Shown here: positions 17,235-23,055 of the stretch, piece after piece
Layout of the letters: every line of letters begins with the position of its first letter
Numbering within the stretch: position 1 is the stretch's first letter
Source: Natronorubrum sulfidifaciens JCM 14089
Lineage (GTDB): Archaea; Halobacteriota; Halobacteria; Halobacteriales; Natrialbaceae
Reading direction: 5' to 3'
DNA length: 32,830 nt
NCBI RefSeq assembly: GCF_000337735.1
Contig: NZ_AOHX01000061.1
Location: 1-32,830, forward strand
Position numbers and translations under genes: made by a program
Notes under the pieces: model-generated
What the model saw: the letters and a program-made list of their open reading frames with translations, nothing else
Database searches by the model: none
Told to the model about the DNA's origin: nothing

Positions 17235-17444
17235 GCTTCTGGATTCCCTTGGTAGGGGCTGGAAGCTGCGCCCGACGTGCTGCAACACGTCGGCACTTCT
17301 GGGGGTGCTCTACGTGACTTGGCTTCCAATCGGTTGTTTAGGCTATCATCACAAAAATCTTACTGTGCAATCCACAGCCAAAGATAGTAATTAGAGAATA
17401 GCTACAAGTGCTTGCACTGTGAACAGTATGACACCGATATAGCT
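17235..17444. other. Intergenic with hairpin and operator candidate
   Basis: CGACGTG...CACGTCG hairpin at about 17272-17291. The inverted repeat AGTGC-TT-GCACT at 17407-17418 lies between a TATA-like ATTAGAGAATA (about 17390-17400) and the likely start site of the wHTH gene at 17445, a repressor-operator position. Confidence 0.4.
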
Positions 17445-17735
17445 ATGAGTTACACAGTAGGATCACAAAATGTGCCCAGGAAGCGAGCTGACTGGATGAC
17501 GCAGGTCGATGAAGAAATCCTCGAGACACTGCGTGAAGAAGGGAACATGACACCACGTGCACTCGAGGACTTCGACGTTACTGTTGCAAACTATGCTCGC
17601 GACCGACTTTCAAAAATGAGTCAATATGGGCTCGTTGAGCGCCTATCCCGCGGCCTCTATCGGCTTACAGAAGACGGAAAGAAATTTCTCGACGAGGAAC
17701 TCGACGCGAGTGAACTTGAGCCTGCTGAAGAATGA
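17445..17735 (+). CDS. PhiH1-repressor-like winged-helix regulator
   Basis: 96 residues. The segment RKRADWMTQVDEEILETLREEGNMTPRALEDF, followed by helix DVTVANYARDRLSKMSQYGLVERLSRGLYRLTEDGKKFLDEEL, is the typical haloarchaeal PhiH1-repressor-like winged helix. The acidic tail (ASELEPAEE) is dispensable in relatives. I chose ATG 17445; a TTG at 17412 would extend into the palindrome 17407-17418. It lies 350 bp before the McrBC-like operon and shares its orientation. It may repress itself and possibly the defence genes; that link is inferred. Confidence 0.85.
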   Translation: MSYTVGSQNVPRKRADWMTQVDEEILETLREEGNMTPRALEDFDVTVANYARDRLSKMSQYGLVERLSRGLYRLTEDGKKFLDEELDASELEPAEE

Positions 17736-17816: not shown

Positions 17817-17996
17817 CCCACTCCGCTAGAGGACAAAGTACTTGTTACAGTCGATACCGAGTGTTCCTTGACGAATCCTCTCATCTCGACATATACGAAG
17901 GGTGAAAACCGGGTCACGTCTACGCTGATGGCTGTTCTCGAGAATGTCAACAACCAGTTAGCAGAAGACCTGCTCGAAACGGTCCGGGAATCGTAA
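17817..17996 (+). pseudogene. Gene remnant before the McrBC-like operon
   Basis: A 59-codon open stretch with no good start reads PTPLEDKVLVTVDTECSL...KGENRVTSTLMAVLENVNNQLAEDLLETVRES-stop. Its codon choice and helical, acidic character look like true protein, unlike other frames here. The only ATG (17928) lies in the last third. It is probably a fragment of a lost neighbour in the defence island. I cannot assign the family. Confidence 0.45.
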
Positions 17997-18083: not shown

Positions 18084-21000
18084 ATGACAGACGAGCGCCG
18101 AATGTCTACCGTTCGGTTCTACGGAGGTATTGAGAAACGGTTGGATATTTTTACGGATCTACTCTCGCACCTTACTCAATCTACTGAGAACACCGAAGGA
18201 GTACCACGACACGAGGTCGTCGACTGGATCATCGCCGAGACGAACGCGAAGACGCCCGATTCGGTTGCGGACCGATTGAATTTCATCGAGGAACTCGGAC
18301 TCATCGAGAGCCAAGACGACACATACTCCTGTACACGAACCGGTCGCTGCTATCTCAGGGAGCGAGATCCGATCGTCTTGTACAACGCGCTTCGCACGAG
18401 CGTCAAGGGCTTCGATACGATCGTTCGTGCGTTAGCTCTCGAGTCCAGAACCGACGAGGACCTCATGGAACTGCTCGTTGGCGAGTTCGAAGAGTGCCAG
18501 ATGAAGACGCCGGGCGTGGTGACACGCCACCGCGAGTGGCTGCAGATGATCGGCTACGTGGAGCGAACAGACGAGCACAACCAACTCACTGAAGCCGGTG
18601 AGGCAGTCGCCGACCAACTCCACGGTGTCTCTGCTGTAGAGCTAGAGCCCGGCTCAACCTACAACCGTCAGACTCTCCACACAGAATACGGTGGCAGCAT
18701 CCAGGGCGGAATCGCGCCCTCGAGAGACGCACCCGTCGTCTTTCTCTTCACAGGCGGCACTGGAGAGGAGCACGGCTATCAGGACGTGATTCGCTCGGAC
18801 GGGACCGTGATCTACACTGGTGAAGGGCAGGTCGGCGACATGGAAATGAAACGCGGGAACCGCGCAATTCGAAGCCATCTCGAGCACGGACGGGAACTGC
18901 ACTTCTTCACGATGGAAACCGAAGGTGTGCAGTATGTCGGCCAGTTCATGTACGCCGGCCACTTCTTCGAGGAGATTTCCGATTCGAATGGCAACGCTCG
19001 GAACGGGATCCGATTCAAACTCGCACCGGTCACAACCGATCAGACCAGCCATCAACCAACAGCCACAGACGACCGCCCCTCGAGAAACTCCGATCTTCGC
19101 CAGTTCACCGATCCGACAGTCTATCAGGTACCCGTGAAGAACGGCGATGGCCCGATTCGAACGAATTTCGACCGGACGGTGATCGAGGGTGTTCCACGAA
19201 GCGAGGTGGAAGCCGTCTACGATCCGCCGATCGAACACGACACCCTCCGAGTATGGGGAAATCAGGAAGACGAACCCGCCACGGAGGGAGATTGTCTGTT
19301 GTTCGCTGACCGCGAGGGACGTCGAGGAGGTGAATATACGATTATCGCCCGTGTTGCTCATGCAACGGTTTTGGATCAAGAAAGGGCAGTTGCATTCACC
19401 GACGCAGTGGGCTGGGGTGATGTCACCGACGTGGTCTTTCCCCATGTCATGTTCCTCGAGCCGATCTACGAGGCCGAACTGGACCGAGAATCCTTCTGGG
19501 ATACGCTTGGGTTCAAAGGCTGGCCGAACGACACGTTCAGCGCGATCAACTTCGATCGGAACGGATCCACCTTCCACGATGAGTATGCCTCGACCAAGAC
19601 GTTCATTGACCAGATCAAAGGACGGCAACTCTATTCCGAGAACAACGACACAATCTCCGAGTACGATTCCCTCGAGCACGCACTCGAGGACGTCCACTCG
19701 AAGCTAACTCACGGGGAAGACGAGTCGGCGTGGCTGAAAAACCACATCGGTGAAGCAGTCATCAAAGACTGGTCCGACGCACTCAGGGGATTCCGACCGG
19801 CGGACGAGGTCGACCCCGACACCGCCGCGAAACTCGATCAGATCCGCCGCACGTATGAGCACCTCGAGTCGGAATTAGAGACAAAAGCCGCCGAACTCGG
19901 GGTCGGAACGCTCGATGCGTTTACACCCGCCCAGACGTTATTCCTCTGTGGGATTCGTCTCGTCCAAGACGACTCCGACATGTCGGGACCGTTCAATCAG
20001 CCCCGTCTGAATAGCGTTCTCGAGGAAGCGTACACAACGCCCGACGAACGTCCCGATCAACCATCGAACGTAGATCATCCACTGGCGACCCATATCCAGA
20101 CCACCGAACCGGGGATCTACAAGTTCACTGCACCACCGGACTACTGGCTTACGGCAGTCGAGTTCGCGTCGATCTCGTTCGAAACGAGTTCCCGCGATCA
20201 ATGGGATCGGCTCGAGAACGGCGACGTTGTTCTGTTCCACTCTCGAGCAAAACCAGCGAACACCGATCACTCGGACCAACCAAGCGGGGTAATCGGTGCC
20301 GGCATCATCGGCGAAACGTTCGAAAAGTCTGACCCGTGGTGGTGGGACGAACACCAAGAAACGAAAACGTTTCCGATGGTCGCAAGCCTCGAGCGAATGT
20401 TCCTCACCGGTGCTGTCGAAGACATCGATACCACGCGAAACATCACCGAAAAGGAACCGGCAGTCATCGAGCATCAACTCAGTGCACTCACCGCGGACTG
20501 CCTTCCGATCGAATCGGCCAACCAGCTTTGTATGAATGCCTCCGGAACGGCGTTCCCCGTCCAATCGATGTTCGGTGCGTTCCGCACGGATGACGGGAAA
20601 ATCGATTATGATCGCCCCATAGCGCTTCTCGAGGCGATGGCCACCGATCTGACCGAAGTCGCACCGATCAACCCACACAAACCACTCGAGAGCACACTCC
20701 CGGATGACATCCTCGAAGGGCTGCACTTCGAAGACGACCTCGGCGAGAAAATCCTCGAGCAGATCTCGACTGCGCTCCGAGCTGGAAAACATATCCTACT
20801 CACGGGACCGCCGGGCACGGGGAAGACCGAAATCGCCGAACGCGTCTGCGAACACCTCGCAGAAACACACCCATACCTGTACTCGGATTTCGAGATGACC
20901 ACGGCGACCGCAGATTGGTCGACGTTCGATACCGTCGGCGGCTATATGCCAAGCGAGTCCACCGAGGACGGCGAGGACCTCTCGTTTACGCCCGGGATCG

Positions 21001-21716
21001 TTCTCAACCGTCTCAAGAACACGCAAACAGGCACACAGTCGAACGACTTGGTCGTCATCGACGAACTCAATCGGGCGGACATCGACAAGGCCTTCGGCCA
21101 ACTGTTCACCCTTCTCTCGGGTCAATCCGTCCAACTCCCATACACCGTCGAAGGGCGCGAAGTCGAACTCACCACGTACGACGACCTCGAGGGAGTCCCT
21201 ACCAGTAATCAGTACATCGTCCCCAATTCGTGGCGCATCTTCGCGACGATGAACGCCTACGACAAGACCTCGCTCTACGAAATGAGCTACGCATTCATGC
21301 GCCGGTTCGCGTTCGTCCGCGTTCCAGCACCAACGCTCCCGGAGGCAACGGACTCCGATGATCCAGTCGAGGATATCGTCTTGGATTACGCGGAGGCCTG
21401 GGACCTTGAGATCACGCGACGAGAAGCTGGCGCAGTCGGTCGGGTGTGGCGCCAGGCGAACACGGCCGTCGAGGAACGCTCGATCGGACCCGCGATCATC
21501 AAAGACGTTCTCGAGTACGTCACCCAACATCCCGACGACCACCTTCCATACCACCTCACACAGGCAGTTATCAGCTACATCTTCCCACAGCTAGAGGGCG
21601 TTCCAAAGCGAAACACGATCGTCAGAGAACTCGCTTCGGTTCCGGATATCGAAACGTCGCTGCTCCACGGTGCAGCCCGAGAGATGCTCCAGGTCTCACT
21701 CGCCACGAATGAATAG
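18084..21716 (+). CDS. McrB-like AAA+ protein with wHTH, SRA-like and EVE-like domains
   Basis: 1210 residues, far larger than classical McrB (about 460). Domains: winged-helix-like repeats (about 15-190; ends of repeats read LGLIESQDD and IGYVERTDE); an SRA-like modified-base pocket of the ScoMcrA type (about 203-305; GGSIQGGI, FTGGTGEEHGYQD, YTGEGQVGDMEMKRGNRAI); a first EVE-like barrel (about 345-490); a helical linker; a second EVE-like barrel (about 672-790; WDRLENGDVVLFH, GVIGAGIIGE, PWWWDEH); then a C-terminal McrB motor with Walker A GPPGTGKT (908-915), Walker B and McrB signature VVIDELNRAD (990-999), ATMNAYD (1054-1060) and FMRRF (1071-1075). The motor should translocate and drive cleavage by the partner nuclease. 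The reader domains suggest recognition of modified DNA. All catalytic motifs are intact. Confidence 0.88.
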   Translation: MTDERRMSTVRFYGGIEKRLDIFTDLLSHLTQSTENTEGVPRHEVVDWIIAETNAKTPDSVADRLNFIEELGLIESQDDTYSCTRTGRCYLRERDPIVLYNALRTSVKGFDTIVRALALESRTDEDLMELLVGEFEECQMKTPGVVTRHREWLQMIGYVERTDEHNQLTEAGEAVADQLHGVSAVELEPGSTYNRQTLHTEYGGSIQGGIAPSRDAPVVFLFTGGTGEEHGYQDVIRSDGTVIYTGEGQVGDMEMKRGNRAIRSHLEHGRELHFFTMETEGVQYVGQFMYAGHFFEEISDSNGNARNGIRFKLAPVTTDQTSHQPTATDDRPSRNSDLRQFTDPTVYQVPVKNGDGPIRTNFDRTVIEGVPRSEVEAVYDPPIEHDTLRVWGNQEDEPATEGDCLLFADREGRRGGEYTIIARVAHATVLDQERAVAFTDAVGWGDVTDVVFPHVMFLEPIYEAELDRESFWDTLGFKGWPNDTFSAINFDRNGSTFHDEYASTKTFIDQIKGRQLYSENNDTISEYDSLEHALEDVHSKLTHGEDESAWLKNHIGEAVIKDWSDALRGFRPADEVDPDTAAKLDQIRRTYEHLESELETKAAELGVGTLDAFTPAQTLFLCGIRLVQDDSDMSGPFNQPRLNSVLEEAYTTPDERPDQPSNVDHPLATHIQTTEPGIYKFTAPPDYWLTAVEFASISFETSSRDQWDRLENGDVVLFHSRAKPANTDHSDQPSGVIGAGIIGETFEKSDPWWWDEHQETKTFPMVASLERMFLTGAVEDIDTTRNITEKEPAVIEHQLSALTADCLPIESANQLCMNASGTAFPVQSMFGAFRTDDGKIDYDRPIALLEAMATDLTEVAPINPHKPLESTLPDDILEGLHFEDDLGEKILEQISTALRAGKHILLTGPPGTGKTEIAERVCEHLAETHPYLYSDFEMTTATADWSTFDTVGGYMPSESTEDGEDLSFTPGIVLNRLKNTQTGTQSNDLVVIDELNRADIDKAFGQLFTLLSGQSVQLPYTVEGREVELTTYDDLEGVPTSNQYIVPNSWRIFATMNAYDKTSLYEMSYAFMRRFAFVRVPAPTLPEATDSDDPVEDIVLDYAEAWDLEITRREAGAVGRVWRQANTAVEERSIGPAIIKDVLEYVTQHPDDHLPYHLTQAVISYIFPQLEGVPKRNTIVRELASVPDIETSLLHGAAREMLQVSLATNE

Positions 21717-23055
21717 AGACCAACTCCTCGAGCAGCTCACCAGCGACATCCTCGCATACGCGATGCAAGGGTCGTTCCCAGAGCGAGAGCTTGCCCGCTC
21801 GATCAAGCCCGAGCAGTTAGACGAGCGCTTTGAGGAGTACGAACTCCTCCTCGATCTCCACTTCATCCTTCAGGACGACGTCGTCGAGTTCGTCAGGCAA
21901 CTCCCGGAACACCTGCGCAGCATTCGCACTGAGACCCGCACGACGTCGCGTACGAGACGCGGGACCGTTGACGGACGAATCAACTGGGGCGACACGATCA
22001 AAAAGCGCTACTCACAGTACCCTCGAGATAGCTCAATTTTCGTCTGCGACAATCGCTCGGTGGACTACGATATCCCCGAAAACCTCGTTCTCAAGCGACT
22101 CATCTCCGTCGTACATCGCACGATTCGGGAGGCCGAAGAGTATCTTCGCGCGGACTACGACTGGGTGAGTGAGACGTGGAAGGGAAGCGAGGACTTGATC
22201 GACGAACTCCAACGGATCGTCGACCGGAACGTCCACGTTCGACGGATCCGCGACCCCGAAACCTACGAGCCAACCGAGCGGATGCTGACGACGGCCGCCG
22301 ACTCGCGCCACGGAGTGTATCGAAACGCAGCCGCTCTGCTCAGAGGCCGCCAACGGTTGCTTCGGGGTGAACCTGACGAGATCCGCAGACTGCTCGAGGA
22401 AACCGCTATCGCCCCGGACGACACGGACGCGCTCTTCGAGCTGTTCGTCCTGTTTCGCTTCGTCGCCACGCTCGAGGAGATGCGAGAGAGTCAGCCACAG
22501 TTCAAAACGATCGCGACCGACCGTCAGGAAGTCGCCAGATTCGAAGGCGAGAAAGAGATTGCACTCTACCACGACAACTCCGCTCGAGACCGTGATCTCT
22601 CCTTTGTCGCTGTTCCAGATGCGGACACGGAGAACCCCTCACGAACAGATCAAGTCCAACTCGTCGCACAGGAGGTTGCGGGCAACTACTTCGGCAAAGA
22701 CTATCAGAACCACACTGGTCGCCCCGACGTTATCGTCCTCGAGATCATCTCCGAGGACGAGAACGAGCATGAGTACCTGATCGTCGAGGTGAAAAACAGC
22801 ACCAACGAGGACACGATTCGACGGGGTGTTAAGGAGACACTCGAGTACCTCGCGTTCCTGCGAGTCAACGAGGACTTCGTGTTCGGTCGTGACGATGGCG
22901 AGTACTTCGGCTCTGGGTGGAACGGGCTCTTGGTAGTCCAAGATCTCGCTGAGGAGACTGCATCACTCGAGGCACAATCCGATCGAGAAATAGCGATCCT
23001 TCAGGCCTCCGAGTTGGAAGATGAGTTAGAAACGATTCTTCGAGAAGTTGTGTAA
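21709..23055 (+). CDS. McrC-like PD-(D/E)XK nuclease subunit
   Basis: 448 residues from ATG 21709, overlapping the McrB-like gene by eight bases, so translation is coupled. The N-terminal two thirds are helical and charged, including a basic stretch RTETRTTSRTRRGTVDGRI (72-90) and the segment SVDYDIPENLVLKRLI, typical of this McrC-like/DUF2357-type family. The C-terminus is a PD-(D/E)XK nuclease: Glu243 in LFELFVLFRF, GRPDVIVLE (337-345, Asp340) and EYLIVEVKNS (355-364, Glu360, Lys362). The catalytic triad is complete. It should cut DNA when activated by the AAA+ partner, as McrC does with McrB. The start upstream at 21670 is rejected because it lies within the partner's coding region and encodes unrelated residues. 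A MITE begins 9 bp after the stop. Confidence 0.85.
   Translation: MNRDQLLEQLTSDILAYAMQGSFPERELARSIKPEQLDERFEEYELLLDLHFILQDDVVEFVRQLPEHLRSIRTETRTTSRTRRGTVDGRINWGDTIKKRYSQYPRDSSIFVCDNRSVDYDIPENLVLKRLISVVHRTIREAEEYLRADYDWVSETWKGSEDLIDELQRIVDRNVHVRRIRDPETYEPTERMLTTAADSRHGVYRNAAALLRGRQRLLRGEPDEIRRLLEETAIAPDDTDALFELFVLFRFVATLEEMRESQPQFKTIATDRQEVARFEGEKEIALYHDNSARDRDLSFVAVPDADTENPSRTDQVQLVAQEVAGNYFGKDYQNHTGRPDVIVLEIISEDENEHEYLIVEVKNSTNEDTIRRGVKETLEYLAFLRVNEDFVFGRDDGEYFGSGWNGLLVVQDLAEETASLEAQSDREIAILQASELEDELETILREVV

Follow-up and report, generated by a model that had tools for sequence, protein, structure and literature searches.

A gene pair of the haloarchaeon Natronorubrum sulfidifaciens JCM 14089 probably encodes a Type IV (modification-dependent) McrBC system. 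Its McrB, a GTPase with an NxxD signature, is predicted to carry a stack of two winged helices, an SRA domain, a YTH/EVE-like domain, a linker and an EVE domain ahead of the motor, and its McrC appears intact. The likeliest mark is 5-methylcytosine, and the readers appear to be exchangeable. Most descriptions of Type IV systems give them a single reader. The window that we analyzed is a stretch of 32,830 nucleotides that makes up contig C61 of a 3.46-Mb genome in 63 contigs. The features of the system within it are as follows.

18084-21716, + strand: McrB-like GTPase P0001, 1,210 aa; intact open reading frame with matches to AAA_5 and solved McrB chains.
18084-18632, + strand: two winged-helix domains, residues 1-183; weak Pfam matches to HVO_A0261_N and HTH_45.
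18639-19058, + strand: SRA domain of the ScoMcrA type, residues 186-325; profile and predicted fold.
18777-18818, + strand: putative SRA pocket motif Y232-x-D234...Y244-T245; invariant and aligned with SUVH5.
19113-19613, + strand: YTH/EVE-like domain of the TgMcrB N-terminal type, residues 344-510; profile and fold.
19614-20063, + strand: linker, residues 511-660; drawn from sequence alone, helical by inspection.
20073-20453, + strand: EVE domain, residues 664-790 (helical extension to 884); AlphaFold2 and Foldseek.
20166-20465, + strand: block apparently exchanged relative to a same-genus copy (L149), residues 695-794; clustering of differences.
20751-21713, + strand: McrB AAA+ GTPase, residues 890-1210; Walker A at 908, Walker B at 991, MNAYD at 1056.
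21709-23055, + strand: McrC-like PD-(D/E)XK nuclease P0002, 448 aa; overlaps the McrB stop.
22726-22794, + strand: catalytic motif RPD...E-x-K in the McrC-like protein, D340...E360-x-K362.

Upstream of the McrB gene, the window holds an Orc1/Cdc6 gene, a ParA-like gene and a phage-type integrase. Also upstream are a 107-aa winged-helix protein with weak Mrr_N/AbiEi-like matches (17412-17735) and, just before the McrB gene, a short remnant frame that ends in STYTKGENRVTSTLMAVLENVNNQLAEDLLETVRES and a stop (17840-17996) and resembles the truncated beginning of a longer gene. Small genes about the size of the winged-helix gene also stand upstream in two other loci (L001 and L004). The ATG of P0002 lies inside the 3' end of P0001 (junction sequence ATGAATAG), and a short overlap of the McrB and McrC genes recurs in L001-L005. 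The first-pass annotation had described motor and nuclease as intact, and both frames are indeed present, intact and overlapping. Twelve further genomes within the family have full-length homologs of P0001 with open frames of ~1,200 aa, and in pairs with relatives every P0001 domain has a dN/dS of 0.03-0.33, which indicates purifying selection; the frame is therefore not a product of chance. When whole proteins were scanned with Pfam, NCBIfam and PADLOC, the AAA domain alone was clearly recognized, and nothing was found for McrC.

The motor has the Walker A, Walker B and NxxD elements of an McrB AAA+ GTPase. Pfam AAA_5 matches residues 903-1075 (E = 2.8e-17), the protein matches the solved McrB chains of E. 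coli and Thermococcus at E = 1.7e-12, and its signature, N1057-A-Y-D1060, is the NxxD type of canonical McrB. We also considered a CoCoNuT, from the branch of McrB systems with long coiled-coils, and rejected it because CoCoNuTs carry an NxD signature (PMC11090510). For P0002 itself, Pfam gave no recognition, and sequence and profile searches of the PDB returned no solved McrC. We call it McrC-like because of its operon position, the invariant RPD...ExK motif and weak Pfam matches in one relative (PF10117 McrBC and DUF2357). Across archaea and bacilli, its homologs immediately follow McrB genes, and D340...E360-x-K362 shows no variation among 23 close and 17 wide homologs. Judged by these residues, McrC carries an intact predicted PD-(D/E)XK site.

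The McrB chain had been read at first pass as a McrBC-like protein with winged helices, an SRA-like pocket and two EVE-like barrels of the PUA superfamily, and on this overall composition profiles and predicted structures agree. The intervals proposed there for checking (residues 190-310, 345-490 and 672-790) each hold by profile, by predicted structure or by both. In the winged-helix segment, the HVO_A0261_N match (E = 2e-6, residues 146-186) falls under the Pfam cut-off. Pfam SAD_SRA is likewise weak on the SRA domain (E = 0.017), and a profile was needed to identify this domain, since a single-sequence search of the PDB gave just E = 0.046 at best. The profile of 18 sequences (A3) matched ScoMcrA at E = 3e-6; the next hit was SUVH5, at 0.22. 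The structural model is confident (pLDDT 81-96 by block), and its fold matches SRA proteins, with Z of 13.8 to SUVH5, 13.5 to ScoMcrA and 12.1 to TagI. All 18 sequences share Y232, D234, Y244 and T245, and these residues line up with GGYND...IYTGQG in SUVH5, which we take to be the base pocket of that protein. Residues 186-325 accordingly show an SRA fold with a Tyr/Asp/Tyr base pocket.

The description of two EVE-like readers held for residues 664-790, which have an EVE fold, but the middle domain is nearer to the YTH/EVE-like domain of Thermococcus gammatolerans McrB (TgMcrB) than to an ordinary EVE. A ten-sequence profile (A7) matched the TgMcrB N-terminal domain (PDB 6p0f) at E = 1.8e-5, and a model of moderate confidence fits the TgMcrB structure with a Z of 7.2 and an rmsd of 4.2 over 136 aligned residues, so that sequence and fold both indicate homology. 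W391 and W444 are invariant in the middle domain and fall on TgMcrB tryptophans in the alignment. In reviews, the TgMcrB domain is described as a YTH domain that reads 6mA (PMC12707154, PMC11037411). The linker after the middle domain of P0001 is replaced or absent in some relatives. For the terminal EVE domain, structure was needed, because its profile (EVE2) alone reached just E of 0.5-0.9 at best against PH1033 and TgMcrB. The AlphaFold2 model (pLDDT 91.1) has the order strand-helix-strand-helix-strand-strand-strand and matches the EVE protein PH1033 (Foldseek E = 1.7e-4, Z 14.0, compared with ~12 to YTH domains).

What do relatives say about these readers? Among 391 Halobacteria genomes, residues 1-339 at ≥60% identity within a ~1,200-aa frame are confined to the same family. 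In proteins 268-566 aa long (L097-L103, L105-L107, L112, L120 and L121), the segment of two winged helices and SRA, or SRA alone, also precedes HNH domains, and residues 1-183 recur before HNH domains in other haloarchaea. The same cassette is carried by a 1,596-aa McrB of a different lineage (MNTADRS; L116, 1375-6165). Its presence on HNH nucleases and in this second McrB lineage marks the winged-helix-SRA cassette as a mobile specificity module. In viral contigs, we found 26 relatives of the SRA domain and none of P0001; 22 of the 26 were inspected in full, and all 22 are SRA-HNH or SRA-PD-(D/E)XK proteins. A single Gordonia phage, in two records, and one Rhizobium phage were all that a phage tblastn with SRA found. 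Because its relatives are fused to HNH or PD-(D/E)XK domains, the SRA domain is, by the company it keeps, a restriction specificity module. In L116, further PUA-like segments lie between cassette and motor. The genus itself holds an intact McrBC directly downstream of DndF-G-H on the same strand (L149, 7426-19438). In a second same-genus copy (L150, 8250-9311, on contig C1 of genome G292), residues ~1-353 with the winged helices and SRA are all that is left; this remnant is broken by a stop and followed by unrelated genes.

Other relatives share the motor and differ in what precedes it. In L006-L012 and L014, similarity to P0001 is essentially limited to the part from the YTH-like domain onward, and the N termini are otherwise unrelated; the match starts at residue 343-344, except in L010 (~250) and L014 (316), and L007-L009, L011 and L012 are without residues 1-342. 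The shared part begins only at ~640-665 in L021-L025, again after unrelated N termini, and a MrcB_N (ADAM) domain is present instead in 9 of 35 family members. A motor-domain tree, built by a quick method and with some open forks, interleaves the N-terminal types and shows at least four changes of SRA state. L017, L018 and L019 have motors that are 95-97% identical, but their chains differ in length (1,501, 1,034 and 1,306 aa) and in reader set. McrBs with several readers are common in the haloarchaeal lineage of P0001, and the readers appear to be swapped. This comparison of sequences suggests that readers are exchanged like cartridges and that motor and cutter are kept. The 1,306-aa chain (L019, 557-4477) appears to hold EVE, EVE-like, MrcB_N, YTH-like and EVE2 readers. 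Elsewhere, a McrB homolog lies in three frames, the middle one transposase-like (L029, 3049-7760), and was probably interrupted by an insertion sequence. A homolog in genome G212 adjoins a BrxC/PglY gene (L151, 9165-12001), a neighbor which suggests that defense islands are the usual home of these systems.

It is somewhat doubtful that only a single domain in the stack is a working modified-base sensor, with the other PUA-type domains and the winged helices serving as plain DNA-binding units or spacers. Relatives with fewer readers, such as the five loci without residues 1-342, are consistent with that arrangement, and so is HHPV4I (HhiV4I). This haloarchaeal enzyme resembles P0001 in combining an SRA-like domain with a winged helix, but it is a three-domain HNH enzyme, and its SRA-like domain is dispensable and the winged helix reads m6A (PMC10101028, PMC11037411); an SRA fold therefore need not mean a working 5mC reader. 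However, the pocket residues of the SRA and YTH-like domains are invariant, and purifying selection acts on each domain of P0001. Cooperation, in which the readers would form a coincidence detector for two modified bases, or for a modification together with sequence context sensed by the winged helices, is unlikely. The stacking of readers in one chain favors it, as do the winged helices of DpnI and HHPV4I, which read m6A or context (PMC11037411), but the independent gain, loss and swap of readers fits independent, additive readers better.

If the pair is, as we prefer to think, a Type IV McrBC system with exchangeable readers, which mark would it recognize? Such a system has to spare self DNA. 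Its own genome has no C5-cytosine methyltransferase (PF00145) gene. We therefore tested methyltransferase genes across 125 genomes of the family, with presence permuted within genera. C5-methyltransferases were found in 6 of 36 SRA carriers (11.2 expected; P = 0.004), 2 of 14 SRA-McrB carriers (5.1 expected; P = 0.02) and 5 of 33 EVE2-McrB carriers (12.1 expected; P = 0.0006), figures that come from several observational tests, devised after the own genome was found to be without such a gene. In the adenine-methyltransferase control (PF02384, E < 1e-20), 14 of 36 SRA carriers had the gene, compared with 13.9 expected, and the other carrier sets showed no significant deficit. Nearly every genome of the family has N4/N6 amino-methyltransferases, and PF01555, itself present almost throughout, was dropped as a contrast. 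A deficit of C5-methyltransferases in carriers, with none of adenine methyltransferases, makes 5-methylcytosine the likeliest non-self mark; G212, which has the system together with C5-methyltransferase genes, is a counter-case. Because the carrier sets overlap, the test speaks for the sets and does not assign the reader responsible. Most likely, the mark would be 5-methylcytosine or an oxidized form of it, recognized via the SRA domain, the terminal EVE domain or both, and N6-methyladenine or some other second mark may be the target of the YTH-like middle domain.

A mark other than methylation, namely phosphorothioate, which had been among the targets first suggested, or a viral hypermodification, is improbable. 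ScoMcrA, the nearest solved relative of the SRA domain, is phosphorothioate-dependent, but P0001 aligns with it in the SRA region only and has no match to its sulfur-binding domain, and the C5-methyltransferase deficit favors 5mC. In addition, the same-genus copy L149 stands beside DndF-G-H, so self DNA there is probably phosphorothioated, which makes phosphorothioate an unlikely target.

Between close relatives, the terminal EVE domain has a history of its own. Of seven segments compared between the window protein and L149, six show about 86-99% identity. The EVE barrel (residues 695-794) differs at 103 of 300 bases (34%), compared with 367 of 3,624 (10%) overall, and the confinement of this difference to the barrel points to reader exchange. 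The clustering has a z of 13.7, against a maximum of 6.3 in 1,000 codon shuffles. The block also resembles an imported allele, since dS is ~1.3 in the EVE domain and 0.17-0.51 elsewhere in the protein. Rapid local evolution instead of recombination is very unlikely: EVE2 identity does lie below that of the flanks in most pairs, but divergence at synonymous sites within the block equals that seen between genera, the edges of the block are sharp, EVE2 stays 89-96% identical in other pairs with near-identical motors, and the 125 family genomes hold no donor closer than 64% identity to the window EVE core.

Several known systems share parts of this architecture. TgMcrB, an already characterized YTH-McrB (PDB 6p0f/6p0g), joins a McrB GTPase to a homologous N-terminal reader, as P0001 does, but its solved N-terminal part is the YTH reader only, whereas P0001 also has winged helices, SRA and another barrel, of the EVE type. 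EVE-McrBs likewise place EVE on a McrB GTPase; they are the commonest EVE fusions in defense and frequently have extra domains (Bell et al. 2020, PMC7641849). Unlike them, P0001 has two PUA-type barrels and SRA, and an SRA fusion is unmentioned in that study. ScoMcrA and TagI have the same SRA type, and the haloarchaeal relatives of the cassette are SRA-HNH nucleases like them; however, both are single-chain HNH nucleases without a GTPase, and ScoMcrA has a sulfur-binding domain in the same chain, whereas the nuclease here is a separate PD-(D/E)XK protein. E. coli K-12 McrBC has, as here, a GTPase McrB and a separate, overlapping McrC PD-(D/E)XK nuclease, but a single reader of the DUF3578/ADAM type. 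NTD-wH-NTPase/McrC fusions also pair a winged-helix NTPase with McrC and are described without SRA (PMC11037411). The main text of the McrB census paper makes no mention of SRA. In the main texts of the papers searched, EVE-McrB and YTH-McrB are known, and neither an SRA-McrB fusion nor the P0001 domain order was found, consistent with the first-pass suggestion that this order may be uncharacterized.

By analogy with E. coli McrBC and similar enzymes, at least one of the readers would flip out the modified base, the McrB hexamer would translocate DNA with GTP, and McrC would cut once complexes meet. The readers would be exchangeable modules, with the N-terminal cassette common to SRA-HNH nucleases and the EVE barrel swapped between close relatives, so that the system could change its target and keep its motor and nuclease. 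Whether haloarchaeal McrBC systems at large are such reader arrays seems to us evenly poised. In that case, they would hold two to about five exchangeable readers per chain, with barrels swapped by recombination like Type I target-recognition domains, and a motor and nuclease that stay fixed could be directed at new DNA modifications; host 5mC methyltransferases would be excluded. The winged-helix-SRA cassette, common to HNH nucleases and McrB motors, would be a natural module for modification-specific tools. A McrB that combines SRA, YTH-like and EVE readers, in a lineage that shuffles its readers on a near-constant motor, would make target change and self-avoidance testable.
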